Assembly (NCBI RefSeq): GCF_004139715.1
Contig: NZ_CP035544.1
Coordinates: 2,855,501-2,919,500, forward strand
Length of the DNA: 64,000 nucleotides
Source: Muriicola soli
GTDB lineage: Bacteria > Bacteroidota > Bacteroidia > Flavobacteriales > Flavobacteriaceae
Direction: 5' to 3'
Of the stretch, positions 43,853-60,976 are shown one piece after another. The notes under the pieces are model-generated. The model searched no databases, was not told where the DNA came from, and worked only from the letters and a program-made list of their open reading frames with translations. Position 1 is the first letter of the stretch. Each line of letters begins with the position of its first letter. Made by a program: the position numbers and the translations under genes.

Positions 43853-44863
43853 ATGTCAAAAAAGGGCATTTTAATCACGGGAGGTGCCGGATTCATCGGG
43901 AGTAATTTTATTCCCTATCTTTTAAATAAATACCCTGATTACCACATCATCAACCTCGACAAACTGACCTATGCAGGCGACTTGTCTAATTTAAAAGAGG
44001 TAGAAGACCTACAACAATATGAGTTTATTCAAGGTGATATTTGTGATGAGCAATTAGTTGGAGATGTCTTTAAACAACACAGCATTTCCTCAGTTATTCA
44101 CTTTGCTGCTGAGTCGCATGTAGACAACTCCATTCACTCCCCCAATAGTTTTATAAAGACCAATATTGAGGGCACCTTTGTACTACTGGAGGCAGCCAGG
44201 AAGTACTGGAGTAATTCCCGGTATCCTAACCAGAGGAACAGATTCCATCATATTTCTACAGATGAGGTTTACGGGAGTCTGGGGGAAACGGGATTGTTCT
44301 CAGAAAACAGCCCATACGCACCTAATAGTCCTTATAGCGCCTCCAAAGCCGCATCAGACCTATTAGTCAGGAGTTATCACAAAACCTACGGCCTCGATAC
44401 CGTTATCAGTAATTGTTCTAACAATTACGGACCAAAACAACACGATGAAAAACTGATACCCACAGTGATTAGAAAAGCGATTGAAGACAAACCGATTCCC
44501 ATTTATGGGGACGGCAGCAATGTTCGCGACTGGATTTATGTTCTGGATCATTGCAAGGCATTGGACCTTGTATTTCACAAAGGACAAACCGGGGAATCGT
44601 ATGTGATTGGCGGCAATAATGAGTATGCGAATTTGTATCTTGCTAAAACAATTTGTGAACTCCTGGACCAATTAAGTCCGAAAGAAAAGGGCAGTTATAC
44701 AGATCAAATCTCTTTCGTGAAAGATCGACTGGGTCACGACTTCAGATACGGGTTAGACATCTCTAAAATGAACAGGACTTTGGCCTGGAATCCTGAAGAA
44801 GATTTTATAGGCGGCCTGACTAAAACCGTAAAATGGTATTTACGCAAATACGAAAAGGCATAA
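43853..44863 (+). CDS. rfbB: dTDP-glucose 4,6-dehydratase
   Basis: Extended SDR of 336 residues, second step of dTDP-L-rhamnose synthesis. The NAD site is [19 protein letters not shown]. The substrate region is [19 protein letters not shown] and the active-site loop is [13 protein letters not shown]. The catalytic pair lies in [15 protein letters not shown], and [17 protein letters not shown] follows. First of four rhamnose genes; rfbA starts 1 base after its stop. Confidence 0.96.
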
Positions 44864-44864
44864 A

Positions 44865-45722
44865 ATGAAGGGAATTATTTTAGCTGGTGGCTCCGGAACC
44901 CGCTTGTATCCAATAACCCTGGTTACGAGTAAACAACTTATGCCCGTTTACGATAAGCCTATGATCTATTATCCGCTGGCAACTTTAATGGAGGCTGGAA
45001 TCAGGGAAATACTGATCATAACGAGTAAGGCAGACGCACATCTATTTAAACAGCTTCTTGGTGATGGAACCCAGCTCGGATGTCATTTTTCTTACGCCAT
45101 CCAAAAAGAACCAAAAGGAATTGCAGAGGCATTTATTATTGGTGCCAACTTTATAGGAACAGACAAGGTTGCTTTAATTCTCGGCGACAATATATTTTAC
45201 GGAGCTGGGTTGGCTTCTTTGTTGCAGCAAAACAATGATCCTGATGGAGGTATCATCTACGGCTACCATGTACAGGATCCTCAGCGATACGGAGTAGTGG
45301 ATTTTGACGATTTAGGGAATGCCGTTTCAATTCAGGAAAAACCCGAAAAGCCCAAATCAAATTACGCCATACCAGGCATCTATTTTTACGACAATGAGGT
45401 AATTGAAATTGCGAGGCAGATCAAACCCAGTAAACGCGGAGAACTTGAGATCACTGATATTAATAAAACCTATCTCTTAAAGGGAAAATTAAAGGTCAGT
45501 ATCCTTGACAGAGGGACCGCCTGGTTAGACACTGGCACTTTTTCTTCTCTTATGCAGGCTGCACAGTTTGTGGAAGTAATTGAGGAAAGGCAGGGATTGA
45601 AAATTGGAGCGATTGAAGAGACTGCTTACAAGATGGGATATATTACTAAAGCGCAATTAAGAATATTAGCCAAACCCTTGTTGAAAAGCGGTTACGGCGA
45701 GTATTTGATGCAATTAAAATAA
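44865..45722 (+). CDS. rfbA: Glucose-1-phosphate thymidylyltransferase
   Basis: The 285-residue nucleotidyltransferase makes dTDP-glucose from dTTP and glucose-1-phosphate. The [20 protein letters not shown] loop is at the N-terminus. Metal/sugar motifs are [13 protein letters not shown] and [40 protein letters not shown] is the usual later motif. The length is standard and the order rfbB-A-C-D is intact. Confidence 0.96.
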
Positions 45723-45729
45723 CGACTCT

Positions 45730-46275
45730 TTGAAACTTATACCTACATCTCTTGAAGATTGTTTTATTGTTGAACCGGTTGTTTATAAGGACAATAGAGG
45801 CGAATTTTTTGAATCGTACAATAAGAGAATTCTAGAAAAAGCGCTTGGGACCTCCCTTTCTTTTGTCCAGGATAATCACTCGGTTTCTCACAAGGGTGTA
45901 CTTCGCGGGCTGCATTTTCAAATTGGAAGCAAAGCACAAGCTAAGTTAGTCCGCGTACTAAAAGGAGAAGTATTGGATGTGGTTGTTGACTTGCGTAAAA
46001 AGAGTCCTACATTCAAACAAGTTTTTAAAACTGTCCTTTCAGACAAAAAAAATCAAATGTTGTTTATTCCCGCGGGTATGGCTCATGGATTTCTGTCACT
46101 TTCAGACGACACTGTTTTTTTGTACAAATGCGATGAATACTATGATAGAGAAGCCGAATCTGGGATAATCTTCAACGATCCCGATCTGAATCTCAACTGG
46201 GGACTTCCTTCAAGTGAAATAATATTATCGGAGAAAGACAGAAAATTGCCCAGACTAAAGGACTTAAAGCTATGA
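45730..46275 (+). CDS. rfbC: dTDP-4-dehydrorhamnose 3,5-epimerase
   Basis: Cupin-type epimerase of 181 residues and the third step to dTDP-rhamnose. The catalytic histidine region is GVLRGLHFQIGSKAQAKLVR, and a second motif is FIPAGMAHGFLSLSDDTVF. The start is TTG at 45730 (MKLIPTSLEDCFIVEP), as no nearby ATG keeps the N-terminus. The stop overlaps the rfbD start by 4 bases (ATGA). Confidence 0.95.
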   Translation: MKLIPTSLEDCFIVEPVVYKDNRGEFFESYNKRILEKALGTSLSFVQDNHSVSHKGVLRGLHFQIGSKAQAKLVRVLKGEVLDVVVDLRKKSPTFKQVFKTVLSDKKNQMLFIPAGMAHGFLSLSDDTVFLYKCDEYYDREAESGIIFNDPDLNLNWGLPSSEIILSEKDRKLPRLKDLKL

Positions 46276-47048
46276 TTCGGGTAGTGGTAACCGGAGCAAA
46301 AGGACAATTAGGAACAAGCATTCAACACCGGGCTGCAGCATACCCCGACTTGCATTTTCACTACACAGACAAGACCCAGCTTGATATTACAGATCCTCGT
46401 TCTATACGCAACTTTTTTTCGAAAAACGATTTTGAGTATTGCATCAATTGCGCTGCTTATACCCAGGTAGAAGAGGCAGAGAGAAATCCTGATATGGCAT
46501 TATTGGTAAATGCCGAAGGAGTAAAAAACCTGGCTTTGGCCTGTAAAAGAGATGGTATAGTTCTTTTCCACATATCAACAGACTATGTTTTTGACGGCAA
46601 GAAGGAAAAGGGATACCTGCCATCAGACTCTCCCAACCCTATCAACAAATATGGGCAATCAAAGCTAAAAGGAGAACAGTATATTGAGGAAATATTAAAG
46701 AACTATCTTATAATAAGAACTTCCTGGTTATACTCCGAGCACGGTAAAAATTTTTACAACACCATCCTTGAAAAGGCCAGAAAGGGCGAAGATCTCAAGG
46801 TTACCGATGCCCAAGTTGGCTGCCCCACAAATGCTGGAAATTTGGCCGAATTTATTCTTAGCCTGATTACTAATAGGAATTGGAAGCCCGGGATCATCCA
46901 TTTCACAGATGGAAAGCCAATGTCTTGGTTTGATTTTGCCGTTTCAATTGTAAAATCGCATAATTTGGATCAGGAGATTGAGATTGTCAGGGATAGGAAT
47001 TATCGTAGTTTTGCACAAAGACCCGAGTATAGTATATTACTCGAATAA
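46272..47048 (+). CDS. rfbD: dTDP-4-dehydrorhamnose reductase, C-terminally short
   Basis: SDR that reduces the 4-keto group in the last step of dTDP-L-rhamnose synthesis. The NAD(P) site is VVTGAKGQLGTSIQHRA. INCAAYTQVEEAERNP and the FHISTDYVFDG...PINKYGQSKLKGE active-site region are intact. The protein ends after QRPEYSILLE at 258 residues. Relatives continue for about 25-35 residues beyond RPxYSxLD with a W-containing helix, and only 14 bases separate this stop from wecB. The tail seems to have been lost, perhaps by a deletion at the gene junction. Activity is uncertain but the catalytic core is complete. Confidence 0.92.
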   Translation: MIRVVVTGAKGQLGTSIQHRAAAYPDLHFHYTDKTQLDITDPRSIRNFFSKNDFEYCINCAAYTQVEEAERNPDMALLVNAEGVKNLALACKRDGIVLFHISTDYVFDGKKEKGYLPSDSPNPINKYGQSKLKGEQYIEEILKNYLIIRTSWLYSEHGKNFYNTILEKARKGEDLKVTDAQVGCPTNAGNLAEFILSLITNRNWKPGIIHFTDGKPMSWFDFAVSIVKSHNLDQEIEIVRDRNYRSFAQRPEYSILLE

Positions 47049-47062
47049 AAGTCGGGTACCGG

Positions 47063-48193
47063 ATGATAAAGAAAAATCTGATTGTGTTTGGAACTCGCCC
47101 AGAGGCTATTAAAATGGCACCTTTGGTTAAAGAATTCTACAAATACCCCGAAAAATTTGAGACCAGGGTCTGTGTAACAGCACAACATAGGGAGATGCTG
47201 GATCAGGTCCTTGCTTTTTTTGAAATAACACCGGATTACGACCTTGATCTAATGCGTCCTAATCAAAATTTATTTACGTTAACGGCAGACATAATTACTC
47301 ATCTCAAGGAAGTTTTGGAGGATTTTGAGCCAGACTATGTATATGTTCACGGGGATACATCCACAACAATGGCTGCTTCACTGGCGTCCTTTTACTCAGG
47401 CTCCAAAGTATGCCATGTAGAAGCGGGTTTACGAACCTTTGATAAGCTCTCGCCTTTTCCTGAAGAAATGAATCGGCGTATAGCAGGTGTAGTCAGTGAT
47501 TATCATTTCCCTCCTACTGATAAATCTGAAGAGAACTTACTGAATGAGAATGTCAGTAGGAACCAACTGCTGGTGACCGGAAATACAGTAATAGACGCCT
47601 TAAATTTCAGTTCTGAAAAAGTTAATAGCAAAGACTTTAAAGATGAGGAAATAGAAGGATTAAAAACGTCTATTGACGCTTCCAAAAGAATAATTCTTGT
47701 AACAGGACATCGAAGGGAAAACCATGGACAGGGTTTTATAAATATATGCCAGGCTTTGAGCAATATAGCTAAGGCAAATCCCGAGGTTGAAATCATCTAC
47801 CCCGTGCATTTAAATCCCAATGTCCAACAGCCTGTGTATGACTTATTGGATGGTATATCCAACATAAAATTGATTGCCCCGCTTTCTTATCCGGCATTTG
47901 TTTGGTTGATGTCGAAGTCATATTTAATTATAACCGATAGCGGAGGTGTACAGGAAGAAGCGCCCAGCCTGGGCAAGCCTGTGCTAGTGATGCGCAACAC
48001 AACAGAAAGACCGGAAGCCGTGAGTGCGGGCACGGTTATACTGGTAGGCACCGATGTTTTAAAAATTACCCAAGAAACGGAAAGATTGTTAAAGGATTCA
48101 ACTCATTATAAGGAAATGAGCGCAAAGCACAACCCTTATGGCGATGGTAGCGCCTGTAAAAGAATTGTGAAGTTTATAGAAAACCTGGCTTAA
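47063..48193 (+). CDS. wecB: UDP-N-acetylglucosamine 2-epimerase (non-hydrolysing)
   Basis: The 376-residue GT-B-fold epimerase turns UDP-GlcNAc into UDP-ManNAc. Signatures are IVFGTRPEAIKMAPLV at the N-terminus, YVYVHGDTSTTMAASLA, VCHVEAGLRTFDKLSPFPEE, LVTGHRRENHG and IITDSGGVQEEAPSLGKPVL. Coupled with the next gene, it makes UDP-ManNAcA for the polymer. It begins 14 bases after the shortened rfbD. Confidence 0.96.
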   Translation: MIKKNLIVFGTRPEAIKMAPLVKEFYKYPEKFETRVCVTAQHREMLDQVLAFFEITPDYDLDLMRPNQNLFTLTADIITHLKEVLEDFEPDYVYVHGDTSTTMAASLASFYSGSKVCHVEAGLRTFDKLSPFPEEMNRRIAGVVSDYHFPPTDKSEENLLNENVSRNQLLVTGNTVIDALNFSSEKVNSKDFKDEEIEGLKTSIDASKRIILVTGHRRENHGQGFINICQALSNIAKANPEVEIIYPVHLNPNVQQPVYDLLDGISNIKLIAPLSYPAFVWLMSKSYLIITDSGGVQEEAPSLGKPVLVMRNTTERPEAVSAGTVILVGTDVLKITQETERLLKDSTHYKEMSAKHNPYGDGSACKRIVKFIENLA

Positions 48194-48194
48194 T

Positions 48195-49429
48195 ATGGAA
48201 AATAAGGATGTGGTTATGATGGGATTGGGGTACATAGGCCTCCCAACGGCTGCCTTGATTGCAAAAAGCGGCAGTACAGTTCACGGGGTAGATGTAAATC
48301 CACACATTGTTGAAACTATAAATAAGGGCAAAATACATATTGTTGAACCATCCCTTGATCATGAAGTTTCTAGGGCTGTAGAAAAGGGATTTTTAAAAGC
48401 AGCACTTGAACCTGTAGCCGCCAACGCTTACCTTATTGTAGTTCCAACACCCTTTAAAGGCAAGAATGAGCCCGATATTTCCTTTGTAGAAGCCGCCACA
48501 AAAGCAATAATACCTCTATTAAAGGAGGGAGACCTGTATATAATTGAATCGACTTCCCCAATCGGTACTACTGATAAGATGAAAGACCTTATCTGCGACC
48601 AAAGACCTGAGTTAAAGGATAAAATTTATATTGCCTACTGTCCTGAAAGGGTCTTACCCGGAAACGTGATGTACGAATTAGTTCACAACGACAGGGTAAT
48701 CGGAGGAATTGATGATAAGTCAACCGAAAAGGCAGCTGAATTCTACTCAAAATACGTCAAGGGCGCACTTCACAAAACCAATGCGCGAACAGCTGAGATG
48801 TGTAAGCTTGTGGAGAACTCATCAAGAGATGTTCAGATAGCTTTCGCAAACGAATTATCCCTTATTTGCGATAAGGCCGATGTGGATGTATGGGAACTTA
48901 TAGATCTGGCCAATAAGCACCCGCGCGTAAATATCCTTAAGCCAGGATGTGGCGTTGGGGGTCATTGTATAGCCGTGGACCCCTATTTTATTGTTTCCGA
49001 TTATCCCTGGAATCAAAAATTATAGGTGCCGCCAGGGAGATCAATAATTACAAGTCGTTTTGGTGTGCCGAGAAAATACAGTCAGCAAAACTTCAGTTTG
49101 AATTAGAACACGGGCGCAAACCCAAGATAGCGATTATGGGTCTTGCTTTTAAACCTGATATAGATGATCTAAGAGAATCGCCAGCTAAATATATCGCTCA
49201 AAAAGTATTGCAGAATGCAAATAATGAGGAATTCTATATCGTAGAACCTAATATTCAGACGCATAATGTTTTCAAACTAACAGCTGTGAAAGAAGCCCTT
49301 GAAAAAGCGGATATCATAGTATACCTGGTGGCTCACAAGGAATTTCTGGAAAATTCCCCGAGAGAAGACAAAATCATCTTGGATTTTGCAGGAGTTACTA
49401 CCCGACACAATAATAAAATCATCAAATAA
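48195..49429 (+). pseudogene. wecC: UDP-N-acetyl-D-mannosamine dehydrogenase, frameshifted near 49009
   Basis: The first frame (48195-49025) carries the NAD-binding start MGLGYIGLPTAALIAKSGST, the catalytic-cysteine segment NILKPGCGVGGHCIAVDPYF and then a stop after WNQKL. The second frame takes up the protein without loss: SKIIGAAREINNYKSFWC, KIAIMGLAFKPDIDDLRES and the C-terminal NAD/UDP domain, to 49429. One extra G at 49008-49010 (TGG to TGGG) would restore a normal protein of about 411 residues. It oxidises UDP-ManNAc to the uronate in two NAD-dependent steps. The whole reading is intact on both sides, so a sequencing or assembly error is plausible; a real recent mutation is the alternative. 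Confidence 0.88.
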
Positions 49430-49437
49430 ATCTATAA

Positions 49438-50550
49438 ATGAAAGTTGCACTACTCACAGGGGTCACAGGACAAGACGGAGCATATTTAAGTGAGTTCTTA
49501 CTTAAAAAAGGGTATGAAGTTCACGGGATAAAAAGAAGGTCCTCGATTTTCAATACAGAACGTATTGATCATATCTATGAGGATCCCCATGTAGAAAATC
49601 CTCATTTTTTTCTCCATTACGGAGACATGACAGACAGCACAAATCTCATCCGTTTGATACAACAAATACAACCTGATGAGATCTACAATCTGGCGGCAAT
49701 GAGCCATGTCCACGTTTCTTTTGAAATTCCCGAATACACGGCCAATACAGACGCCCTGGGAACATTGAGGATCCTGGACGCGGTAAGGCTTCTGGGGATG
49801 GAGAAGAAAACCAGAATCTACCAGGCGTCAACATCGGAACTCTATGGAAAAGTACAGGAAGTTCCACAAACGGAAACAACACCTTTTTACCCCAGAAGTC
49901 CGTATGCGGTGGCTAAAATGTACGCCTACTGGATTACAGTGAATTACAGGGAGGCATATGATATGTTCGCGTGCAATGGAATTCTTTTTAATCATGAATC
50001 GCCTATACGAGGAGAGACCTTTGTTACCAGAAAGATAACCCGAGCGGTATCCCGAATTGTCCTGGGACTCCAGGATAAGTTTTATCTCGGGAATCTGGAC
50101 GCACAGAGAGATTGGGGTCACGCCAAAGACTACATTCGAATGATGTGGATGATCCTACAGGCCGATGAAGCTGAGGACTGGGTGATAGCTACAGGTAAGA
50201 CCACCAAGGTCAGAGAATTTGTCAGAATGAGCTTTGCTGAGGCAGGTGTTGAACTTGAATTCAAAGGAGAGGGAGTTGAAGAAAAGGCAATAGTAAAGGC
50301 ATGTAACAACGAGAAATACCAACTGCCTGCTGGGAAGGAAGTGCTGAGCATTGACCCACGTTATTTCAGGCCAACAGAGGTAGATATCCTTGTAGGTGAT
50401 GCTACAAAGGCGAGAGAGAAATTAGGGTGGATTCCTAAATATGACCTTCAGGGCCTTGTAAAGGATATGATGGAAAGCGATTTAAAACTTATGCAAAAAC
50501 AACAATACCTTAGGGATGGAGGCTACCGCATTAAAAATTATTTTGAATAA
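49438..50550 (+). CDS. gmd: GDP-mannose 4,6-dehydratase
   Basis: SDR of 370 residues giving GDP-4-keto-6-deoxy-D-mannose. NADP site [35 protein letters not shown]; active-site region [20 protein letters not shown] with [39 protein letters not shown] and [18 protein letters not shown]. All are typical. It feeds both the fucose-type and the colitose-type pathways. No GDP-mannose synthesis genes (manB/manC) are in the window. Confidence 0.97.
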
Positions 50551-50561
50551 GACTATTTCCA

Positions 50562-51497
50562 ATGCCTGAAAAAATCCTTATTACCGGAGGAACCGGAATG
50601 GTCGGAAAGAACATTCTGGAGCATCCTAAAGCCCAAGACTATGAAATCCTGCATCCGAGCAGTAAGGAACTAAACCTGCTAAGTAAGGAGCAGGTGAAGG
50701 AGTATTTGACAAAATACCATCCTGATGTCATTATCCACGCTGCAGGTCTGGTAGGAGGAATACAAGCTAATATGGCTAATCCTGTAGGATTTCTTGTCCA
50801 GAATCTCGACATGGCGAGAAACCTGATAGGAGTAGCATATGAACTAAAAATTCCGAAACTTCTCAATATAGCCAGTTCCTGTATGTATCCGAGGAGAGCT
50901 GCGAACCCCTTAAAGGAGTCAATGATACTCACTGGAGAGCTTGAACCTACAAATGAAGGCTACGCTCTAGCCAAAATATTCGGTACCCGTTTGTGTGAAT
51001 ATATCAGCAAAGAAGACACACAATTGTCCTATAAAACATTGATTCCTTGTAATCTCTACGGTAAATTCGACAAATTTGATCCTAAAAACTCCCATATGCT
51101 TCCAGCTGTAATCAGGAAGATAGACCAGGCAGTTCAACAGCAAAATAATGAGGTGGAAATATGGGGAGATGGCGAGAGCAGGAGGGAATTCATGTATTCA
51201 GAAGATCTTGCTGATTTTATATTTTATGCAATGCCTAGATTTGAAAAATTACCACAGAATCTCAATGTAGGCTTGGGCTTCGACTATTCAATCAACGAAT
51301 ACTATGCAACCATAGCCAAGATTTTGGGATATAAGGGAGGGTTCAAACACGATTTGTCTAAACCCGTGGGGATGAAAAGGAAATTGATAGATAACTCCGC
51401 ACTGAAAAATTTTGGATGGCAAGCGAAAACATCTCTCGAAGAAGGGATCTTAAAAACGTATCAGTATTATAAAACTCTTGAGAATGACAAATTATAA
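50562..51497 (+). CDS. fcl: GDP-L-fucose synthase / GDP-L-colitose synthase (Fcl/ColC-type epimerase-reductase)
   Basis: The 311-residue SDR has NADPH loop ILITGGTGMVGKNILEHPK, IHAAGLVGGIQANMANP, the active-site IASSCMYPRRAANPL with serine and cysteine, the NEGYALAKIFG tyrosine-lysine pair and the histidine in KNSHMLPAVIRK. These residues are shared by Fcl (GDP-fucose) and ColC (GDP-colitose), so sequence alone does not separate them. It sits between gmd and the colD-type gene, which argues for use in GDP-colitose synthesis, perhaps with fucose as an alternative. It overlaps the next gene. Confidence 0.9.
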   Translation: MPEKILITGGTGMVGKNILEHPKAQDYEILHPSSKELNLLSKEQVKEYLTKYHPDVIIHAAGLVGGIQANMANPVGFLVQNLDMARNLIGVAYELKIPKLLNIASSCMYPRRAANPLKESMILTGELEPTNEGYALAKIFGTRLCEYISKEDTQLSYKTLIPCNLYGKFDKFDPKNSHMLPAVIRKIDQAVQQQNNEVEIWGDGESRREFMYSEDLADFIFYAMPRFEKLPQNLNVGLGFDYSINEYYATIAKILGYKGGFKHDLSKPVGMKRKLIDNSALKNFGWQAKTSLEEGILKTYQYYKTLENDKL

Positions 51498-52647
51498 ATT
51501 AGCTTCTTCTACCTGGGATGATGCAGAAATTAAGGCTATCCAGTCTGTAATTGACAGGGACATGTATACGATGTCTGATAGTGTTAAGCAGTTTGAATCT
51601 GAGTTTGCCGATTACGTGGGTTCGAAATACTGCGTGATGGTTAATTCTGGCTCCTCTGCCAACTTATTGGCAATCGCTGCACTATTCTATACTAAAAAGC
51701 CAAAATTAAAACGTGGCGATGAGGTAATTGTACCGGCTGTTTCCTGGTCTACCACCTATTTCCCTTTATATCAATACGGCCTGAAGTTGAAATTTGTGGA
51801 TGTAGACCTTAAGACCCTTAATTATGATCTGGACGCTCTGGAAGAAGCCGTCACTGAATCCACGAAAATGATCCTTGCCGTAAATCTCCTGGGAAATCCG
51901 AATGATTTTAGAAAGATAAAAAAGATCATTGGGTCAAAAGATATTTTGCTCTTTGAAGACAATTGCGAGTCCATGGGTGCTACCTTCGAAAACAAACATG
52001 CCGGTACCTTTGGGATTATGGGGAGTTTTTCTACCTTCTTTTCCCACCATATTTCTACTATGGAAGGAGGTCTAATTGTTACTGATGACGAAGAATTATA
52101 TCATATACTGCTATCCACAAGGGCCCATGGTTGGACGAGAAACTTACCTGATGACAATCGGGTTTCACCTAGAGGATCAGATTGGTTTCTGGAATCATTT
52201 CGGTTTGTCCTTCCCGGATATAATTTAAGACCCCTGGAAATGAGCGGGGCCATCGGAATTGAGCAACTAAAGAAACTTCCCGGTTTTATTGATCAAAGGA
52301 GGAAGAACGCGGCTTATTTCACCAGTAAATTTAAAAACCATCCTCATTTCCTGATTCAGCAGGATACGGATAAGAGCAGTTGGTTCGGTTTTAGTCTTAT
52401 TATTAAACCCGATTCGCCTCTTGACAGAGCATCGATTATCGATAAATTAAATAAAAATGGGATAGAATCCAGACCCATTGTGACCGGGGATTTTACAAAG
52501 AATGAAGTACTCCGATACTTTGATTATGAGATTCACGAATCGCTTTCTAACGCAAAATATCTTGATAAGAAAGGTTTTTTTGTAGGAAATCACCAAATCC
52601 CGCTAAACAAGGAAATCGATCATTTGTATGAAGTTCTTCGAGGATAG
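51484..52647 (+). CDS. colD: GDP-4-keto-6-deoxy-D-mannose 3-dehydratase (ColD-type, PLP/glutamate dependent)
   Basis: The 387-residue DegT-fold protein is of the unusual dehydratase type. The residue that holds PLP as a lysine in aminotransferases is histidine here: SFSTFFSHHISTMEGG, with the catalytic histidine at residue 188 counting from ATG 51484. Escherichia ColD uses His188 in the same way to remove the C3 hydroxyl. N-terminal MTNYKLASSTWDDAEIKAIQ and GDEVIVPAVSWSTTYFPLYQ closely follow remembered ColD sequences. ATG 51484 is preferred to TTG 51478 by that likeness. Overlaps fcl by 14 bases. RfbH (CDP-sugar) shares the histidine, but the GDP-sugar neighbours favour ColD. Confidence 0.93.
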   Translation: MTNYKLASSTWDDAEIKAIQSVIDRDMYTMSDSVKQFESEFADYVGSKYCVMVNSGSSANLLAIAALFYTKKPKLKRGDEVIVPAVSWSTTYFPLYQYGLKLKFVDVDLKTLNYDLDALEEAVTESTKMILAVNLLGNPNDFRKIKKIIGSKDILLFEDNCESMGATFENKHAGTFGIMGSFSTFFSHHISTMEGGLIVTDDEELYHILLSTRAHGWTRNLPDDNRVSPRGSDWFLESFRFVLPGYNLRPLEMSGAIGIEQLKKLPGFIDQRRKNAAYFTSKFKNHPHFLIQQDTDKSSWFGFSLIIKPDSPLDRASIIDKLNKNGIESRPIVTGDFTKNEVLRYFDYEIHESLSNAKYLDKKGFFVGNHQIPLNKEIDHLYEVLRG

Positions 52648-53983
52648 AAAATCTCGTTTGCATGCAAGGAGCCTTAATCTGCTCGTGCAATTAAAGCGTT
52701 CATTTTTATTTAAGGTCCTTTCAATGGGCCTTTCCTTTTTACTGGTAAGATTCCTTTTAAAGTACCTTGAAATCGAAGATTACGGACTTTGGGCTGTTGT
52801 CCTTTCTTTTCTACATTGGATCGTATTTTTTGATTTAGGAATCGCCAATGGAGTAAAAAACAAACTCGCCGAAGCCCTGAGTAATGATAATATGGCACTG
52901 GCGCGGAAATACCTCAGCACTGGGTACATTGCGCTCTTCGGCTTTTCGGCATTGATCTACCTCTCAGTATTTTTATTTTCCGGGCTAATCAATTGGAAAG
53001 CCCTCCTGAATTCTCAGAAATACGACAATGAATATCTTGGAACGCTAGTATTAATTGTTTTGTTTTTCACTCTGGCAAACTTTGTTCTATCACTCATCAA
53101 TGCGGTTTTCAATGCAGTACAAAAGGCGTCATTAGTAGTTGTTAACCAGTTTTGTTTTCAACTCTTAGCCATGGGTGTCGTCCTTTTACTCATTAGTTAT
53201 ACAAGTTCTGATTTACACCTTCTGGCCATCGGCTACGGCTTGAGTATGTTTTTCGCAAATTTAGGATTGAGTATATGGTTCTACTCGCGTAACCTTGAAC
53301 TGAGACCTTCTTGGAAACTGTATGAAAAGGAATTGCTGAAACCCGTTCTTTCTCTGGGGTTAAGGTTCTTTTTTCTTCAAACCACAATGATGGTTATCCT
53401 TACAACAGACCGCTTCATTCTTTTACAACTGACCAATCCTGAAGAGGTTACGCGCTATGATGTGATATTCAGATATTTCAATCTGTTGATGGTGCTGCAC
53501 ACTTTAATAAACGCGCCTCTGTGGTCAATGTACACCGAGGTTTACGAGAAAAAGGATTTTTTATGGATAGAGAAAACCATGAAAAATCTGCTGCGCTTAA
53601 GCGGGGGATACCTAGTCATTCTTGTGGTGATGATCTTACTGGGAGATTCAGTAATTAAGATCTGGCTGAGCAAAGGAGACATGGGACTTACTACTACAAA
53701 TTATATACTGATGGCCATATTGATATTATTCAGTATAGTTCATTCAATCCTGGCGTATTTTTCAAACGGAATATCTCAAACAAACCTTCAATTAATTACC
53801 TCTCTTATAGGTGCTGCTATAAATATTCCTCTCTCAATTGTATTTGTGAATTACTACCATATGGGTCTTAACGGGGTAATTCTGGCCACAATAATTAGCC
53901 TATCTTTGTTTTGTTTTACAGGACCATTCCAAGTAATTAAGGTCATCCGATCACTGAAACAAGAACTGCAAAGTCCAGCCTGA
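52628..53983 (+). CDS. Wzx-type polysaccharide flippase
   Basis: The 451-residue membrane protein has about 12 helices in the MATE/MOP fold, for example LFKVLSMGLSFLLVRFLLKY, VVLSFLHWIVFFDLGIANGV and IPLSIVFVNYYHMGLNGVIL. The LEIEDYGLWAVVLSF and FDLGIANGVKNKLAEALS stretches are typical of O-unit flippases. It flips lipid-linked repeat units to the periplasm. It overlaps the colD end by 20 bases. Confidence 0.9.
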   Translation: MKFFEDRKSRLHARSLNLLVQLKRSFLFKVLSMGLSFLLVRFLLKYLEIEDYGLWAVVLSFLHWIVFFDLGIANGVKNKLAEALSNDNMALARKYLSTGYIALFGFSALIYLSVFLFSGLINWKALLNSQKYDNEYLGTLVLIVLFFTLANFVLSLINAVFNAVQKASLVVVNQFCFQLLAMGVVLLLISYTSSDLHLLAIGYGLSMFFANLGLSIWFYSRNLELRPSWKLYEKELLKPVLSLGLRFFFLQTTMMVILTTDRFILLQLTNPEEVTRYDVIFRYFNLLMVLHTLINAPLWSMYTEVYEKKDFLWIEKTMKNLLRLSGGYLVILVVMILLGDSVIKIWLSKGDMGLTTTNYILMAILILFSIVHSILAYFSNGISQTNLQLITSLIGAAINIPLSIVFVNYYHMGLNGVILATIISLSLFCFTGPFQVIKVIRSLKQELQSPA

Positions 53984-53986
53984 TCT

Positions 53987-54889
53987 ATGGAACATCGAAT
54001 TAGTATACTAATCCCGGTATTCAATGAACTGCAATACACTAAACTATGCCTGGAAAATCTCTCTTCAACTTTAGAGTATTACAAGGAACACACTGATTCT
54101 CCCTGGACATTTGAGATTGTGGTCATAGATGACGGATCAACCGATGGAACATCTGCCTGGATCCAGGAAAACTATCCTGAGGTGATTCTTCTTTTCGGGA
54201 ATGGAAATTTGTTCTGGTCTGCCGGAGTAAATAAGGGAGTGGAATACGCTTTGTCACAAAGTAAAAAACCATCTCATATCCTATTTTGGAACAAGGATCT
54301 ATTTATTGAAAAAACATATTTCAATCTACTTCATAATCTGATCGTTAATAATCCTGAAAACACCATCATATCTTCAAAAATGTACAGGAAAAGTACTCCT
54401 GATATATTGTTCTCCTTCGGAGGTAAATACAAGCCATGGACAGACACCAAAATAAATGTTGGAACCGGACAAAAAGACGGGAAAGCTTTCAATAGCAAAA
54501 TGGAAATTGACTGGTGCGGAGGAATGGCAGTAACCATTCCTACAGAAGTCTTCAATCAGATTGGGCTGTGTGACGCTGTTAACTTTCCTCAGTATGACGG
54601 AGATACCGATTTCTTTTTACGAGCTGGCTATGCAGGATTTAAAGTATTGATATTTCCTGAGTTAAAAGCCTGGAATGTTCATGAAAACACAGGGAGAAAG
54701 GAAAAATTTTCACTACAAAATCTCAAGTGGTATCTTACCAATATACGATCGTACAAGAATTTTCAGATCAGTTATACTTTTTTGAGAAAGCACTCTAAAG
54801 GTCCTATTGCTTATTTGTTTTTTATCAGTCGTTATATTGTTTTTATCAGTAAGTATTGCGTTAAGATCCTTATACATTCAAGGCGATGA
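53987..54889 (+). CDS. Family 2 glycosyltransferase
   Basis: The 300-residue GT-A transferase starts ISILIPVFNELQYTKLCLEN. The nucleotide-binding IVVIDDGSTDGTSAWIQENY follows, then the metal/acceptor part EIDWCGGMAVTIPTEVFNQI and FPQYDGDTDFFLRAGYAGFK. The layout fits inverting transferases of the rhamnosyltransferase-like branch. The donor is probably one of the sugars made upstream; which one is unknown. The stop overlaps the next ATG. Confidence 0.88.
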   Translation: MEHRISILIPVFNELQYTKLCLENLSSTLEYYKEHTDSPWTFEIVVIDDGSTDGTSAWIQENYPEVILLFGNGNLFWSAGVNKGVEYALSQSKKPSHILFWNKDLFIEKTYFNLLHNLIVNNPENTIISSKMYRKSTPDILFSFGGKYKPWTDTKINVGTGQKDGKAFNSKMEIDWCGGMAVTIPTEVFNQIGLCDAVNFPQYDGDTDFFLRAGYAGFKVLIFPELKAWNVHENTGRKEKFSLQNLKWYLTNIRSYKNFQISYTFLRKHSKGPIAYLFFISRYIVFISKYCVKILIHSRR

Positions 54890-56082
54890 GGTCTGCAGGT
54901 CTTTTATTAAATATTCAAATATTCCTTGTAGCTCTGGCAATCGCCATTTTTACGCTGGGGTTTACCTATTTTACCCTCTTCGTAAGTCTCTTGATAGTCA
55001 CGACTAGCTATCCGAAGTTTGTAGTACCCAGGAATACTCTTTTGTTTTATATTATCGTATTCATGTCAGGAAGCCTGATTGCCCTGATCATGGTTCTGTT
55101 CAATACATTCCCTGATTCGGAAGTAAAAGCGGTATTCTTGAGGAACCGTCTTTTCTTAATCCGTATTTTGTTTGCTCTTGCTGTTTGCCTCTTCCTCATG
55201 AGATTGACCTGGGAAAGAGTTCTTTATCTGTTGTTCATCATCGTGATAATTCAGGTAATAACAGGGGTATATGAATTGCTCTTCACAGATACGACGAGAA
55301 TTTCTATGTTGACCTCCGAACCAAGTGCCGCTGCCATGTATTACGTATTGCTGGCACCGCTTATGATAGGTTATTATAAGATCAATAAAAGCGCAAGGAT
55401 CTGGATTGTTTTGTATCTCATTATGGGATTGTTCATTCAATCCAAGGCATTGTTCCTGGTAATTCCTATTCTCATTCTATATCTGGTATTTAAATCGGAC
55501 AATAAAAACTTAAAAATAGCGGTTTGGGGAGTGTTGATCGTCTCCGTACTGAGCATTCCGTTTCTATTAGGGATAAAGGAGGTAGACCGCCTGGTCTACT
55601 TTATCGATATTCTAAAGGAACAGGGTATTGAGGGCTTGACTGAGCAAAATAAAATATGGAGCACTTTCACACTTCGATTTAGTTCAGTTTTGACCTCTAT
55701 TCAGCTTCTTTTTGAAAATCCATGGGGAATTGGCTTTGGAAGCTTTCATTGGATGTATATTGACAAAATGACTTCAAATACAATTCAGAGTACGCTTACA
55801 GGAGTCGAGATTCGCGGAATTCTCAATGGTGAACTCTATGCGACTCCAAAGTCTTTGTTTTTGGAATATGCAATTAGTTGTGGCATTTTTTTCCTTCTTC
55901 CCGTATTCGTTTTGGCAAAGAGAATTTTAAGTAAAGCCATACCATCTACCATAAAGGTCGCTTTTATTGGAGTTATCCTTATATCTTTGATCGTAGAATT
56001 ATCCCCTTTTATGACATTTCTCGGTGTCCTGATGATTTTGAGCCATAAAATTAAAAAGGAGAATTACCTAGTATTACCATGA
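54886..56082 (+). CDS. O-antigen polymerase/ligase-family membrane protein (Wzy candidate)
   Basis: The 398-residue protein has about 10 or more helices, for example [20 protein letters not shown] and [21 protein letters not shown] large loop carries the feature [16 protein letters not shown] typical of Wzy_C-type polymerases. It overlaps the preceding glycosyltransferase by 4 bases and the next acyltransferase by 4. A second protein of this superfamily at 57761 shows the ligase-like motif more clearly, so this one is taken as polymerase. Confidence 0.78.
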
Positions 56083-56636
56083 AGCAAATTGTACTCTTCT
56101 TAAAAAGTCTTCGCCTGTACCTGATAAATAAACTGGTACTTAAAATACCTTTTCCTCACTTACGGAATTTTCTTTTAAAGGGTTATTTAATAAAAGGAAA
56201 GCGCAGTAATATAATGAGTTCAGTTACGGTCCTGAACAAGACTTTTAAACGAAATAAAATTCAAATTGGGGATAATTGCATAGTCAATTCCGGTTGTATT
56301 CTCGATGGGCGTGGAGGATACTTAAAAATTGGCAATAATGTGGATATTGCAAAAGGGGTCTGGATTTTCACGGTTGGCCATGATCCGCATTCTGACATCC
56401 ACGATACCATTTCTAAAGATGTCGTAATCGAAGATTCAGTTTGGATCGCTTCACGGGCGATTATACTTCCAGGCGTAACTATTGGTAAAGGAAGTGTGAT
56501 TGCAGCAGGATCGGTGGTTACCAAAGATGTACCACCCAAAAGCATAGTTGGCGGAAATCCGGCCAAAATTATAGGGGAAAGGAGATCATCTCTTGAATAC
56601 CGCAATAATTTTTTCCCTTATTTGGATATGATATGA
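56079..56636 (+). CDS. Left-handed beta-helix acyltransferase (WcaF/Maa-like)
   Basis: The 185-residue hexapeptide-repeat transferase shows successive turns: [79 protein letters not shown] and a closing [12 protein letters not shown]. The catalytic histidine is in TVGHDPHS. It probably O-acetylates the polymer or a precursor. Confidence 0.92.
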
Positions 56637-56648
56637 TACTCTTAAACT

Positions 56649-57764
56649 TTGAATAAACCAGCTGATCACTTGGTAGAATTGTATACATATGAAGAGGTTG
56701 TTGATGCCGAACAAACCTTACTGATGTTGTCTCCGGGTATTTTTCAGAAGGATGGAGGAATGTTCAGTTATGCCAAAGTGTGGATAAATGAGATTCGTAA
56801 TTTTTCACAGAACTACACCTTTCTCTTTTCAAGGCGATATCAACAAGACCTTTCCGGAGATCATTTAATTTTTAGAACGATTAAGTCTGATAATAAGAAG
56901 TATGCAATGGTCATTTCTTTATTGTCTGTAATTCTGCCTTTTTCCCTGTTAAAATATTTTTTCAATGATTACAGGGAATTCGCTATAAACAACAATCAAA
57001 TACATATACTCACAAGTTTCCTCCTCGCTTATCCTTTGATCAGGTGTCTTATGAAGTTCAAGAAGGAGCTTACTATAATTTACACCCTTCATGATCCTGT
57101 CCCGCATCAGGAGAAAAGAGGCCCAATTGGCAAAAAGCTGAAGTTTCATTACTTACATAAGATTTACGAATTATCGAGGGTCCACCCTAACTTCTATTTA
57201 CATCTTCACAGTAAAAAATTACTGGAAGATTGCCAACACACAGCAGGCAAAGTCATAATAAAACCACACCCTCTGCCTGAGAAGCTTGTAGTACCAAAGA
57301 ATTCTAATTTCGATGGTTTTGTTTTTGGTGTTCTGGGAAGGATGGAAGCCTATAAAGGATTGGACATATTGCTGGAGGCATTTCAAGTGCTATCCAAAGA
57401 TGCAGATATTAACAACAAAATAAAATTGGCAATCGTGGGTAGCGGTGAGATCGATAAAGAATCATGGGAACAACTTCCAATCCTAACGGATATCCAAAAC
57501 AGAAGGGTGGATGAGATCGAATTTCATGAATATATATCATCTCTGGATTGCCTGTTATTACCCTACAGAAAAGCAAGTCAGTCTGGGGTCGGATATCTGG
57601 CCCTTGCCTATGAAATTCCCATAATTGCGACAAATACCGGTGGGCTACCGGATATTATTAAACAAAGCAGCGACCCTAGAAGCAGGCTTATTTCTCCTAA
57701 TAAAAGCGGGGAACTTGTGGATGCCATCTTGAGTTTTATGAAAATTGAACAGCATTCTTTATGA
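56649..57764 (+). CDS. Family 4-like glycosyltransferase
   Basis: The 371-residue GT-B protein has its C-terminal donor domain with FVFGVLGRMEAYKGLDILLE, IVGSGEID and the closing LPYRKASQSGVGYLALAYEI, a variant of the EX7E motif, then IIATNTGGLPDII. The start is TTG at 56649 (MNKPADHLVELYTYEEV); no ATG is closer. The stop overlaps the next gene by 4 bases. Acceptor and donor are unknown. Confidence 0.86.
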   Translation: MNKPADHLVELYTYEEVVDAEQTLLMLSPGIFQKDGGMFSYAKVWINEIRNFSQNYTFLFSRRYQQDLSGDHLIFRTIKSDNKKYAMVISLLSVILPFSLLKYFFNDYREFAINNNQIHILTSFLLAYPLIRCLMKFKKELTIIYTLHDPVPHQEKRGPIGKKLKFHYLHKIYELSRVHPNFYLHLHSKKLLEDCQHTAGKVIIKPHPLPEKLVVPKNSNFDGFVFGVLGRMEAYKGLDILLEAFQVLSKDADINNKIKLAIVGSGEIDKESWEQLPILTDIQNRRVDEIEFHEYISSLDCLLLPYRKASQSGVGYLALAYEIPIIATNTGGLPDIIKQSSDPRSRLISPNKSGELVDAILSFMKIEQHSL

Positions 57765-59020
57765 AATCAGGAATTGTGGGAGAAAAAAATCCCTTCAGAC
57801 ATATTAATTTCTACCAAATAGCCTTATTTCTATTTCTCTTCACGCTTCCATTAGAGAATAGATATAGCAATATTGGCCTGATTCTTCTAACTGCAGCCTG
57901 GATATTACAGTTTGAGAGACAAACAGTCTTGAGCTCTTTTAAAAAGTTCGCTTACATTTTTCTTATTCTCAATTTGATTTGGTTCCTCATAGGCTTGATT
58001 TTTTCTTTCCAGGAGTTTTTTTGGGACTATATGGAAAAAGTAGGGAAGTATTTTTTATTAGTTCTGCTGCCACTACTTATGATTCCTGCGAAAAATTTAA
58101 ACAGAAGACAACTAGCTTTTTCATTCTCAGGATTCGTCATCTCCATGGTATTGATCCTCTTAATCAGCTATGCCAATGCTGCGGGACAGTATCAGGCAGG
58201 AATAGAAAATCCTTTTAATTACTCTGTTTTTGTTTCAAAAGGCGGCGATTTTCACCCGGCTTATATTTCAATGTTCGTCGTATGTGCTTTTTTTCTATGT
58301 CTGGAAGGATTACAGATATTTAAAAGCCTTGGAGCTCGTATTGTAATCACTGCTATTCTGATCTTGTTTTTTCTCTCAGTTTTTGTAATTCAAGCCCGAA
58401 CGGCTATACTAGCTATGGCTATTCTAATCCCAATTTATGCTTTGCTGGCGATTAATAAAAGAAGAGCTTTCTATGCAAGGCTCGTACTTGTCATCTCTGT
58501 TTTTGTAATAGGGACCATCTTGGTTTTCAAGGTAGGCAATACACCCTTTTTACTAATGAAAGAAAGGGTTGTAAACGGCTTTACAAACAGCTTGTCCATC
58601 AGGATAGAAACCTGGAAGTGCGCCCTTGAGGTATTTACATCTAATTCGTGGATAATCGGCGTGGGCTCCGGAAATGAGCATCTCGCTTTAAAAGAGTGTT
58701 ATTACAATAATTTCCTTACTCGTCAGTACTTTGACAATTACAATACTCATAACGATTTTTTACATATCCTTCTGCGAAATGGAATAATCGGGCTGCTTTT
58801 GTGGATTGGATTTCTCGGAACGATGTTGATCAGGAACTATCAGGTTAAAAATCATATCGGCATTATCTTCGTTTTGTTATTTTGTATAAGCGGTTTAACT
58901 GAAAACTTACTTAGCAGAATTTGGGGAATTTTATTTATTGGTACCGGGATTGGTTTTTGTCTCCTGTCGTATTTCAATGATGCCCGATTTATTAGTGGAT
59001 CTAAAAGAATTACTGAATGA
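57761..59020 (+). CDS. O-antigen ligase/polymerase-family protein (WaaL-like candidate)
   Basis: The 419-residue protein has about 11 helices and the PF04932-type signature in the large periplasmic loop: WIIGVGSGNEHLALKECY followed by NYNTHNDFLHILLRNGIIGL with a conserved histidine. Its second half has typical helices such as LLLWIGFLGTMLI. WaaL joins lipid-linked polymer to lipid A core. Two such proteins in one operon suggest one polymerises and one ligates, but the sequence cannot settle which. Overlaps both neighbours by 4 bases. Confidence 0.8.
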   Translation: MKSGIVGEKNPFRHINFYQIALFLFLFTLPLENRYSNIGLILLTAAWILQFERQTVLSSFKKFAYIFLILNLIWFLIGLIFSFQEFFWDYMEKVGKYFLLVLLPLLMIPAKNLNRRQLAFSFSGFVISMVLILLISYANAAGQYQAGIENPFNYSVFVSKGGDFHPAYISMFVVCAFFLCLEGLQIFKSLGARIVITAILILFFLSVFVIQARTAILAMAILIPIYALLAINKRRAFYARLVLVISVFVIGTILVFKVGNTPFLLMKERVVNGFTNSLSIRIETWKCALEVFTSNSWIIGVGSGNEHLALKECYYNNFLTRQYFDNYNTHNDFLHILLRNGIIGLLLWIGFLGTMLIRNYQVKNHIGIIFVLLFCISGLTENLLSRIWGILFIGTGIGFCLLSYFNDARFISGSKRITE

Positions 59021-60054
59021 GCAATAGAAAAGACATCTTGGTATTTGCCAAGAGGTATAATGTTAAAAATCCGGAACAAATTGGGGGAGCGATTAGGTTG
59101 TCCGAGGAACTAATTGACGATTTGCAAACCCTGAAAGAATCATTTACTGTTATAGATATTAACCCTGCCAATGGCGGTGGATTCTTTTTGACGTATATCA
59201 AGGTAATTTGGAAAACCATAATCCAAACAAAAAAACACAATAGTGTACTATTTATTGGGAGTGACAGGGTTGTGGTTCATTTGGCCCCGGTGGTATTGTT
59301 GATCGGGAAGTTGTGTAATAGAAAAGTCACCTTGAAAAAGGTAGGAGGAGGTTTTGACCGATTTTACAATGAAAGTGGTTACCTGGTTAAATTAAGAATC
59401 AGATGGTTGATGAAAAATGTAGTGGCCACCCTATTTGAAACCAAACAATTGGTTAATTACTTTAAGTCTTTTGGCAGGACCGTTTGGTTCCCTAATGTCA
59501 GAAATTTCCCGGAGAGAAAAATTATTCCCGGAGCTTACCAGAAACGGTTTGCTTTTATTAGTCAGGTAAAGAACACAAAAGGAGTAATTGAAATTCTGGA
59601 GGCATGCCAAATTTTGGGGAGTGATTATCGGATTCATATCTACGGGCCTATCGTGGACCTAGTTATCCCCGATCATTTAAAATCAATTTTTGATGAGATA
59701 TACAAGGGTGCTCTGAAACCTGATGAGGTACTCAAAACCATCGAAAATTACGATGTCATCATGCTTCCCACTTACTATCCCGGTGAGGGATATCCTGGAA
59801 TACTAATCGAATCCTACTCCATGGGTAAGCCTGTAATTAGCACCATCTGGAATTCGATCCCGGAGATTATTGATCATGAAAAAACGGGCTTGCTAATTGC
59901 TCCAAAAGATAAAACAGCCCTTGTTGAAGCTATTGAATGGTACAATGTCAAAAATTATCCAATACTGAGTGAGAACGCTTTGAACTATTCCAAACAATTC
60001 AACAGTCTTTATCAAACCAGTGACAAATTAAATCTGATTAAAGGTAATGCGTGA
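59017..60054 (+). CDS. Family 4-type glycosyltransferase
   Basis: The 345-residue GT-B protein has a donor domain with FAFISQVKNTKGVIEILEAC, the motif PTYYPGEGYPGILIESYSMG (EX7E-type) and VISTIWNSIPEIIDHEKTGL. It starts ATG 59017, overlapping the previous stop by 4 bases. Its role is inferred as adding one sugar to the repeat unit. Confidence 0.9.
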   Translation: MSNRKDILVFAKRYNVKNPEQIGGAIRLSEELIDDLQTLKESFTVIDINPANGGGFFLTYIKVIWKTIIQTKKHNSVLFIGSDRVVVHLAPVVLLIGKLCNRKVTLKKVGGGFDRFYNESGYLVKLRIRWLMKNVVATLFETKQLVNYFKSFGRTVWFPNVRNFPERKIIPGAYQKRFAFISQVKNTKGVIEILEACQILGSDYRIHIYGPIVDLVIPDHLKSIFDEIYKGALKPDEVLKTIENYDVIMLPTYYPGEGYPGILIESYSMGKPVISTIWNSIPEIIDHEKTGLLIAPKDKTALVEAIEWYNVKNYPILSENALNYSKQFNSLYQTSDKLNLIKGNA

Positions 60055-60976
60055 TATCTATATCGTAGGGGTAGGGCGATCAGGAACAAGTTTACTGCAA
60101 TCTATGTTGCATGCGCATTCTGAATTAACCTCCTCCCCTGAATCGCATTTTTTTAGAAGTTATATTGCCTCTGAAAAGCGCCAGAAAAAGATGGAACTGA
60201 GAGGACCTGAAAATTTCAAAGAGGTGCTCAGAAAAGATCGATTTTTTAACCGTTTAGAGGTTGACCCTGACCAACTAAAAACATTATCCGGTTCCTCCTT
60301 CACCATACTTGATGTGAATAAGGAAATAACAGATTTGTTGAAAGAGAAATACGGGAAAGAGGTATTGGTAGACAAAGACCCAAGGAACCTCGAAAACATT
60401 TCGAAGATTCACAATTATTTTCAGGATGCGAGAATCGTCCATATTATTCGAGACCCCAGAGATGTTGTTTACTCAAAAACAAAGGCAAATTGGTCGTCTA
60501 GAAGGCCTTATTGGTTGCATGCAATGATTGGGGAGGCACAGATGAAAAAAGGATTAGCTTCAGCAAGTAAGTTGGACTCAACGACCTATCATCAACTTAA
60601 ATATGAGGACTTGCTTGAATTTCCTGAAGAAGTTCTACAAAAACTGTGTTTATTTTTAGACCTGACGTACGAGCAAGGTATGCTGAACTTCAATGAAAAG
60701 GCAAAAGAACTCGTCACCAAAGATGAAATGCAATGGAAAAAGGAAACGCTGCAACCTTTAAAAAAAGGGAACAGGTTTAAGTGGAAAGAATTTTACAGCC
60801 CCTTCCAATTGGCAGTTATTGAGAAGATATCTCAAGACAGTATGACAGCGTTTGGATATAAGAATTTAGCAGACAGGAGCAAGCTCAATATTTGGCTTAG
60901 GATGAATATTTCTCTGGCCAACTATGCCTCAATATTATTCTCTCCAGCGTACTTAGTTTTAAAAAAATGGATTTAA
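60047..60976 (+). CDS. PAPS-dependent sulfotransferase
   Basis: The 309-residue protein has the 5'-phosphosulfate loop IYIVGVGRSGTSLLQSMLHA at the N-terminus and the 3'-phosphate motif IVHIIRDPRDVVYSK near residue 140, diagnostic of the sulfotransferase family. It transfers sulfate from PAPS to an acceptor, most likely a polysaccharide hydroxyl given its place. The PAPS synthesis genes (cysDNC) are not in the window. Overlaps the genes on both sides (by 8 and 10 bases). Confidence 0.9.
   Translation: MRDIYIVGVGRSGTSLLQSMLHAHSELTSSPESHFFRSYIASEKRQKKMELRGPENFKEVLRKDRFFNRLEVDPDQLKTLSGSSFTILDVNKEITDLLKEKYGKEVLVDKDPRNLENISKIHNYFQDARIVHIIRDPRDVVYSKTKANWSSRRPYWLHAMIGEAQMKKGLASASKLDSTTYHQLKYEDLLEFPEEVLQKLCLFLDLTYEQGMLNFNEKAKELVTKDEMQWKKETLQPLKKGNRFKWKEFYSPFQLAVIEKISQDSMTAFGYKNLADRSKLNIWLRMNISLANYASILFSPAYLVLKKWI

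Follow-up and report, generated by a model that had tools for sequence, protein, structure and literature searches.

A stretch of 64,000 nucleotides of the Muriicola soli genome (G000:C1:2855501-2919500, hereafter the window; the genome is a single contig of 3.07 Mb) carries at 49438-52647 three intact, co-directional open reading frames (ORFs) on the forward strand. A first-pass annotation of this DNA had read them as gmd, a short-chain dehydrogenase/reductase (SDR) and colD, and from the trio had predicted synthesis of GDP-L-colitose. The frame of the third ORF spans 51478-52647, and its in-frame ATG at 51484 gives an overlap of 14 nt with colC. The Gmd beats the gmd equivalog model TIGR01472 (598 bits vs a cut-off of 415) and is the only full-length Gmd found in the genome at E 0.001. 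Judged from sequence, the strength of the matches of the trio is far beyond chance. Its GC content of 0.39-0.42, compared with 0.39-0.43 for the upstream ORFs, gives no compositional sign of recent transfer. We consider it very probable that the trio makes GDP-L-colitose, a prediction that is borne out by the identity of its ColD to that of Escherichia coli O55, by the placement of its ColC in a tree and by the Gmd score.

The DegT-fold protein matches the solved ColD entries (PDB 2gms/2gmu, 3b8x, 2r0t and 3gr9) with E values of roughly 1e-180 to 1e-182; after these four sequences, the next PDB match is E1 at only 4e-52, and the corresponding bit scores are 610 to ColD vs 180 to E1. Over 386 amino acids (aa) it shares 69% identity with the protein in the ColD position of E. 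coli O55:H7 (L011), and the structure of the E. coli enzyme is solved. In place of the lysine that would bind pyridoxal 5'-phosphate it has a pair of histidines, residues 188-189 as numbered from the ATG at 51484; opposite the first of them, the solved variants 3b8x and 2r0t have Asn and Lys, respectively. The first-pass annotation had likened this pair to that of ColD, and indeed all 89 aligned ColD rows retain HH (a count that takes in the window itself and the second copies of two genomes). By its predicted catalytic His188 and its full-length similarity to characterised ColD, the protein is a putative ColD-type 3-dehydratase.

E1 also has His for Lys, with its HH aligned to that of the window protein, and the best NCBIfam match of the latter is RfbH, at 269 bits. 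Both features would suit an enzyme of the E1/RfbH type working on a CDP-sugar route to abequose, paratose or tyvelose, a reading to which we attach next to no probability. The RfbH score lies below the cut-off of 423, the bit scores given above favour ColD over E1, and the neighbouring gene is gmd, not a CDP-glucose dehydratase. Moreover, the cysteine-rich stretch of E1 has no counterpart in the alignment; the window protein has cysteines at positions 50 and 161 only, and the E1-type [2Fe-2S] four-cysteine motif was not found in it. The available part of a review, PMC8987622, describes ColD as an enzyme with His in place of Lys that, unlike E1 and SpnQ, has no [2Fe-2S] cluster. The sequence thus agrees with the earlier expectation of a GDP- rather than a CDP-sugar enzyme.

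For the second gene, the first-pass annotation had reported the catalytic residues common to Fcl and ColC, leaving the choice between the two ambiguous. The five residues that we take to be catalytic in E. coli Fcl (S107, C109, Y136, K140 and H179) are all kept in the window SDR and in 77 of 77 ColC rows. These common residues, the common SDR family and the RefSeq names of the E. coli O55 orthologue ('GDP-L-fucose synthase family protein') and of a plasmid copy would fit an SDR that is a GDP-L-fucose synthase, in a pathway that mainly makes fucose and in which ColD is a side branch or inactive. We find this highly improbable. In a tree of 113 sequences (a quick search, no bootstrap), all 77 ColC rows fall on one side of a branch with a support of 100 in the Shimodaira-Hasegawa-like approximate likelihood ratio test (SH-aLRT), while the other side holds 29 Fcl-type rows (28 flavobacterial and one from E. 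coli) and seven other SDRs of colD loci. Of 15 diagnostic columns, at least 90% fixed and differing between ColC and Fcl, 13 show the ColC state in the window SDR and none the Fcl state. It is 57% identical to the ColC-position protein of E. coli O55, and by ancestry the predicted protein is a ColC and not an Fcl, which settles the ambiguity.

Against the NCBIfam Fcl model NF047922 the window SDR scores 316.7 bits, below the cut-off of 500. None of 80 sampled genomes of the family reaches 500 bits, though, and the cut-off alone is therefore weak evidence. The model has matches at E 1e-60 in 34 of these 80 genomes: 12 are full-length at 402-497 bits (likely true Fcls), and three are full-length at 306-316 bits and belong to G000 (the window genome), G002 and G059, the sole ColD carriers among the 80. 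In the window genome, a search at E 0.001 found this one full-length Fcl/ColC protein and no second.

A longer Fcl-like SDR is common in Flavobacteriaceae, with open frames of about 350 aa or more (L113-L130 except L118 and L127). Such proteins occur in 19 of the 80 genomes at 295-320 bits, where the Fcl model is matched over its first 189-197 positions only, and eight of them formed one branch in a first SDR tree. The Fcl set omits L118, which is the window itself, and L127, which is the G002 ColC, and four of the 34 model matches are not represented in it by a locus. Also left out were L072 (141 aa of ColC in the stretch) and L086 (no SDR match) from the SDR trees, and L071, with its very long branch, from the second one.

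Mechanistically, Gmd would convert GDP-D-mannose to GDP-4-keto-6-deoxymannose. ColD, charged with pyridoxamine 5'-phosphate (PMP) from glutamate, would then remove the C3 hydroxyl with His188 as acid/base, and hydrolysis of the PMP-bound intermediate would yield GDP-4-keto-3,6-dideoxymannose. Finally, ColC would epimerise C5 and reduce C4 to give GDP-L-colitose, chemistry that we take to be that of ColC and that is reportedly tied to the work of Alam in 2004. As regards ColD, the part of PMC8987622 at hand describes both the hydrolysis of the PMP-bound intermediate and the regeneration of PMP by glutamate. Elsewhere in the genome there is one mannose-1-phosphate guanylyltransferase-like gene (C1:2268354-2269391, 371 aa; PDB 2x5s, E 1.9e-62), whose product does not reach the threshold of the two-domain GMP_PMI model. 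The genome also has two phosphoglucomutase/phosphomannomutase (PGM/PMM)-type genes. The route from GDP-mannose to GDP-L-colitose, which had been proposed as a full one, is complete on paper, with nothing needed missing. We infer from sequence the activity and substrate specificity of ColC, ColD and Gmd, as well as the presence of the sugar in a polymer; colitose would most likely be built into the surrounding Wzx/Wzy-type polysaccharide, perhaps together with rhamnose.

Several observations weigh against colitose as the product or against its reaching a polymer. The ColC label in the SDR tree is partly circular, because the ColC rows were picked by their similarity to the window protein (at least 46%) and their location in a colD locus; the group is anchored to known chemistry by the row of E. 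coli O55, next to which stands that of Yersinia. Similarly, ColD identity by itself does not fix the substrate, because Campylobacter jejuni homologues use GDP-heptose: in the portion of PMC10440746 available, the C3-dehydratases of HS:5, HS:11 and HS:45 have 62-67% identity to known ColD, and GDP-6-deoxy-4-keto-heptose was demonstrated as the substrate of the HS:5 and HS:11 enzymes. At the level of the polymer, no GT11 (WbgN-type) colitosyltransferase gene was found in the genome by a search that had no positive control, and this is not evidence of absence because no control genome gave a match. In addition, three genes of the wider locus, all within the polysaccharide locus, are split by frame in this assembly (wecC-like, 48195-49429; family 4 glycosyltransferase or GT4, 64436-65625; UXS-like, 68547-69514; window numbering). 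Since they are unbroken in Muriicola marianensis, we are less confident of the polymer than of the nucleotide sugar, and it may not be made; gmd, colC and colD themselves are intact.

The serious rival to colitose is that the DegT protein acts on GDP-6-deoxy-4-keto-heptose on the way to a 3,6-dideoxyheptose, as in C. jejuni HS:5. One genome per species was scanned across 84,980 species, giving 286 stretches with a ColD relative at a loose E of 1e-3; the locus counts rest on the best 80 of these 286, with 62-83% identity. Four of the 80 (L017, L027, L028 and L030, all Campylobacterota) look heptose-type, with a ColD and only a Gmd-like gene of less than 35% identity, without ColC, and they resemble the C. 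jejuni 3,6-dideoxyheptose pathway. The partners in the window, however, are a true Gmd and a ColC, not a separate epimerase and reductase, and the sole full-length Gmd found in the genome is of the hexose type (no search for GDP-heptose genes was made). Furthermore, the four heptose-type ColDs lie within a 10-row Campylobacterota clade (SH-aLRT 99) that also holds ColC-associated rows, and the window lies outside it. A search for a heptose-type residue yielded one column, with Tyr in the four heptose-type ColDs, Cys in 66 of 78 ColC-associated ones and Ser329 in the window, and is uninformative. Taken together, we give the heptose substrate a very slim chance and retain colitose as the predicted product.

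The trio is embedded in a polysaccharide locus whose features are collected in Table 1.

Table 1. Predicted genes of the trio and of the surrounding polysaccharide locus (window coordinates)
Feature	Position	Strand	Size and basis
gmd, GDP-mannose 4,6-dehydratase	49438..50550	+	370 aa; TIGR01472 598 bits; PDB 1db3 E 1.2e-168
colC, GDP-L-colitose synthase, C5 epimerase / C4 reductase SDR	50562..51497	+	311 aa; sequence and tree
colD, GDP-4-keto-6-deoxymannose 3-dehydratase, PMP-dependent	51484..52647	+	387 aa from ATG at 51484; His188
rmlB, rmlA, rmlC, rmlD, dTDP-L-rhamnose genes	43853..47048	+	Pfam for rmlB, rmlC, rmlD; rmlA named from sequence only
wecB-like UDP-GlcNAc 2-epimerase and split wecC-like dehydrogenase	47063..49429	+	Pfam
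Wzx-like flippase	52628..53983	+	PF01554 and PF01943 above cut-offs; Wzx name inferred
GT2, Wzy-like, acetyltransferase, GT4, Wzy/ligase-like, GT4 (predicted repeat-unit assembly)	53987..60054	+	Pfam
Sulfotransferase-like gene	60047..60976	+	PF13469 109 bits

Of the two Wzy-like ORFs, the first (54886-56082) does not reach the Pfam cut-off. The wecC-like UDP-sugar dehydrogenase gene, whose name, like that of wecB, we presume to apply, consists of two overlapping frames, 48195-49025 and 48947-49429, and its orthologue in M. marianensis is one ORF of 406 aa. The rmlD at 46272-47048 is short (258 aa) and is probably natural, because its counterpart in M. marianensis, an open frame of 264 aa, is about as short. 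Past the end of the window the sequence reads on through GT4, initiating-transferase-like, ugd-like and UXS-like genes to purD (names from sequence), the split GT4 and the UXS-like decarboxylase lying just beyond it in G000:C1:2919933-2925014 (L131 2433-3640 and 6547-7514).

A 20-kb stretch of M. marianensis (L012/L132) has 20 of the 23 queried locus ORFs in the same order at 53-95% identity, a comparison in which wecC counts as two pieces and rmlB is cut by the end of that stretch; the three unmatched ORFs are upstream of rmlB, beyond its end. The trio is among the ORFs found in both species (gmd 95%, colC 74% and colD 82-83% identity), and because this order is shared the locus looks inherited within the genus. 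The difference lies in the wecC-like, GT4 and UXS-like genes, which are unbroken in M. marianensis and split in the window genome. Globally, 72 of 86 ORFs of the M. marianensis region have relatives of more than 50% identity in the window genome, three of them split by frame and four matched only in part; in the reverse comparison of window-genome ORFs against M. marianensis, none of 74 is split and one is partial. No long homopolymer was seen at the split sites, and the splits may stem from assembly error or from real decay.

The best 80 loci come from ten named phyla and one unassigned row. Both gmd and ColC lie in the stretch at 67 of them, spread over eight named phyla plus the unassigned row; ColC is present without gmd in the stretch at four and absent at nine, including the four heptose-type loci. 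ColC stands directly upstream of ColD in 68 of the 80 relatives, as it does in the window. At L049, L068 and L071, ColD and a true gmd are accompanied by an SDR that is only 32-41% like ColC; these loci would possibly make other stereoisomers of 3,6-dideoxyhexose, not colitose.

Closer to the window, and at E 1e-120, ColD is found in two of nine genomes of the genus, in eight of 397 sampled genomes of the family and in two of 395 of a phylum sample, the window's own being counted in each. The family of G679, sampled as a route toward Echinicola, gave one of 86 genomes, with no more than small genomes from two genera. A ColD relative is present in thirteen plasmid records (five at 60-80% and eight under 60% identity), and among the ten listed (H11-H20: Paracoccus, Azospirillum, Phaeobacter and others, genera that we take to be alphaproteobacterial) two are predicted conjugative. 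H11 has gmd, a 'GDP-L-fucose synthase' and a DegT gene in a row. In phages, no ColD match was obtained at E 1e-60 among 50,697 records.

A phylogeny of ColD had been proposed as a check, together with the suggestion of lateral transfer. The tree has 87 rows; L132 and L138, which duplicate L012 and L019, are left out here as in the first SDR tree. It pairs the window ColD with that of M. marianensis (SH-aLRT 100) and places the pair inside a 32-row group, mainly flavobacteria and Campylobacterota (SH-aLRT 93). Its deeper order is weak, because of 84 inner branches 23 carry a star and another 36 are open.

Donor hypotheses were evaluated with groups that were all chosen after inspection of the tree. 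Taken alone as sister of the window pair, E. coli (p 0.0043 in the approximately unbiased, AU, test), Yersinia similis (AU p 0.0018), Vibrio fujianensis (AU p 1.5e-7) and Vibrio ouci (AU p 2.4e-140) were each rejected, as was a clade of the pair with 17 marine gammaproteobacteria (p 2e-4). Not rejected were the pair joining the whole 26-row gammaproteobacterial-type group at its base (p 0.207), which leaves the source undecided, and all 11 flavobacterial ColDs as one clade (p 0.229). An earlier six-row donor test (p 1.6e-5) was set aside as poorly constructed: when the window pair is removed, a clade of the remaining four rows is still rejected (p 0.00065). Lateral spread of the pathway in general seems likely from these sequences, because its distribution is patchy and covers many phyla, and the gene looks mobile over long times. 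The proposed transfer is plausible, then, for the pathway overall; no support emerges for a recent donor among the enterobacteria or Vibrio, an older connection with the gammaproteobacterial group may exist, and entry into flavobacteria may have been single or repeated.

The colitose pathway of E. coli O55 and Yersinia offers a close likeness, with the same enzymes, the same catalytic residues and ColC directly upstream of ColD. In the L011 stretch of O55, by contrast, there is no gmd beside ColC, whereas in the window Gmd comes directly before it; ManC and a GT11-type gene lie inside the O55 cluster, and the ManC-like gene of the window genome lies elsewhere. The C. jejuni HS:5/HS:11 systems share the ColD-type C3-dehydratase and the PMP chemistry but, to judge from the sections of PMC10440746 available, differ in their heptose substrate and in having a separate C5 epimerase and C4 reductase in place of ColC.

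Colitose had been described as mainly an enterobacterial and Vibrio-type sugar, which holds only in part, since it is not confined there. Within Bacteroidota we can compare Echinicola, which we take to belong to a different family, Cyclobacteriaceae; there the sugar is known from chemistry, and in the window it is predicted from genes. As far as the part of PMC8707317 at hand goes, Echinicola vietnamensis KMM 6221 has a tetrasaccharide O-chain with 3,6-dideoxy-L-xylo-hexose, and colitose in a Bacteroidota surface polysaccharide is thus already in print. The sugar also appears in Pseudoalteromonas carrageenovora and in the lipooligosaccharide of Colwellia psychrerythraea 34H, according to the accessible portions of PMC4052302 and PMC8914368. 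ColC and ColD were noted in a verrucomicrobial endosymbiont in the available part of PMC8204192, and a survey that covered 12,939 genomes mentions colitose once in its main text, in the portion of PMC7725333 at hand, for its absence in TACK archaea. In the open literature we came across no paper reporting colitose from Flavobacteriaceae, with subscription journals mostly outside the search, and do not claim its absence from print. A Zunongwangia paper was rejected as such a report: its 'dideoxyhexose' belongs to a lipid A reference.

Taken globally, this is a known pathway in a new host and is ordinary in kind. On a broader view we see roughly even chances that colitose is a widespread environmental sugar and no enterobacterial oddity; that gmd-colC-colD travels as one unit among at least eight named phyla, also on plasmids, and is easily overlooked since the records examined label ColC as GDP-L-fucose synthase and ColD as a DegT aminotransferase; and that a heptose-specific version arose in the weakly supported Flavobacteriia/Campylobacterota part of the ColD tree, apart from most proteobacterial ColDs. 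The sequence criteria used here separate ColC from GDP-fucose synthase, which annotation confuses in the records examined. For Muriicola, the trio provides a specific and checkable sugar prediction. If colitose is confirmed, its chemically known range in Bacteroidota would widen to Flavobacteriaceae, and a surface marker would be supplied.

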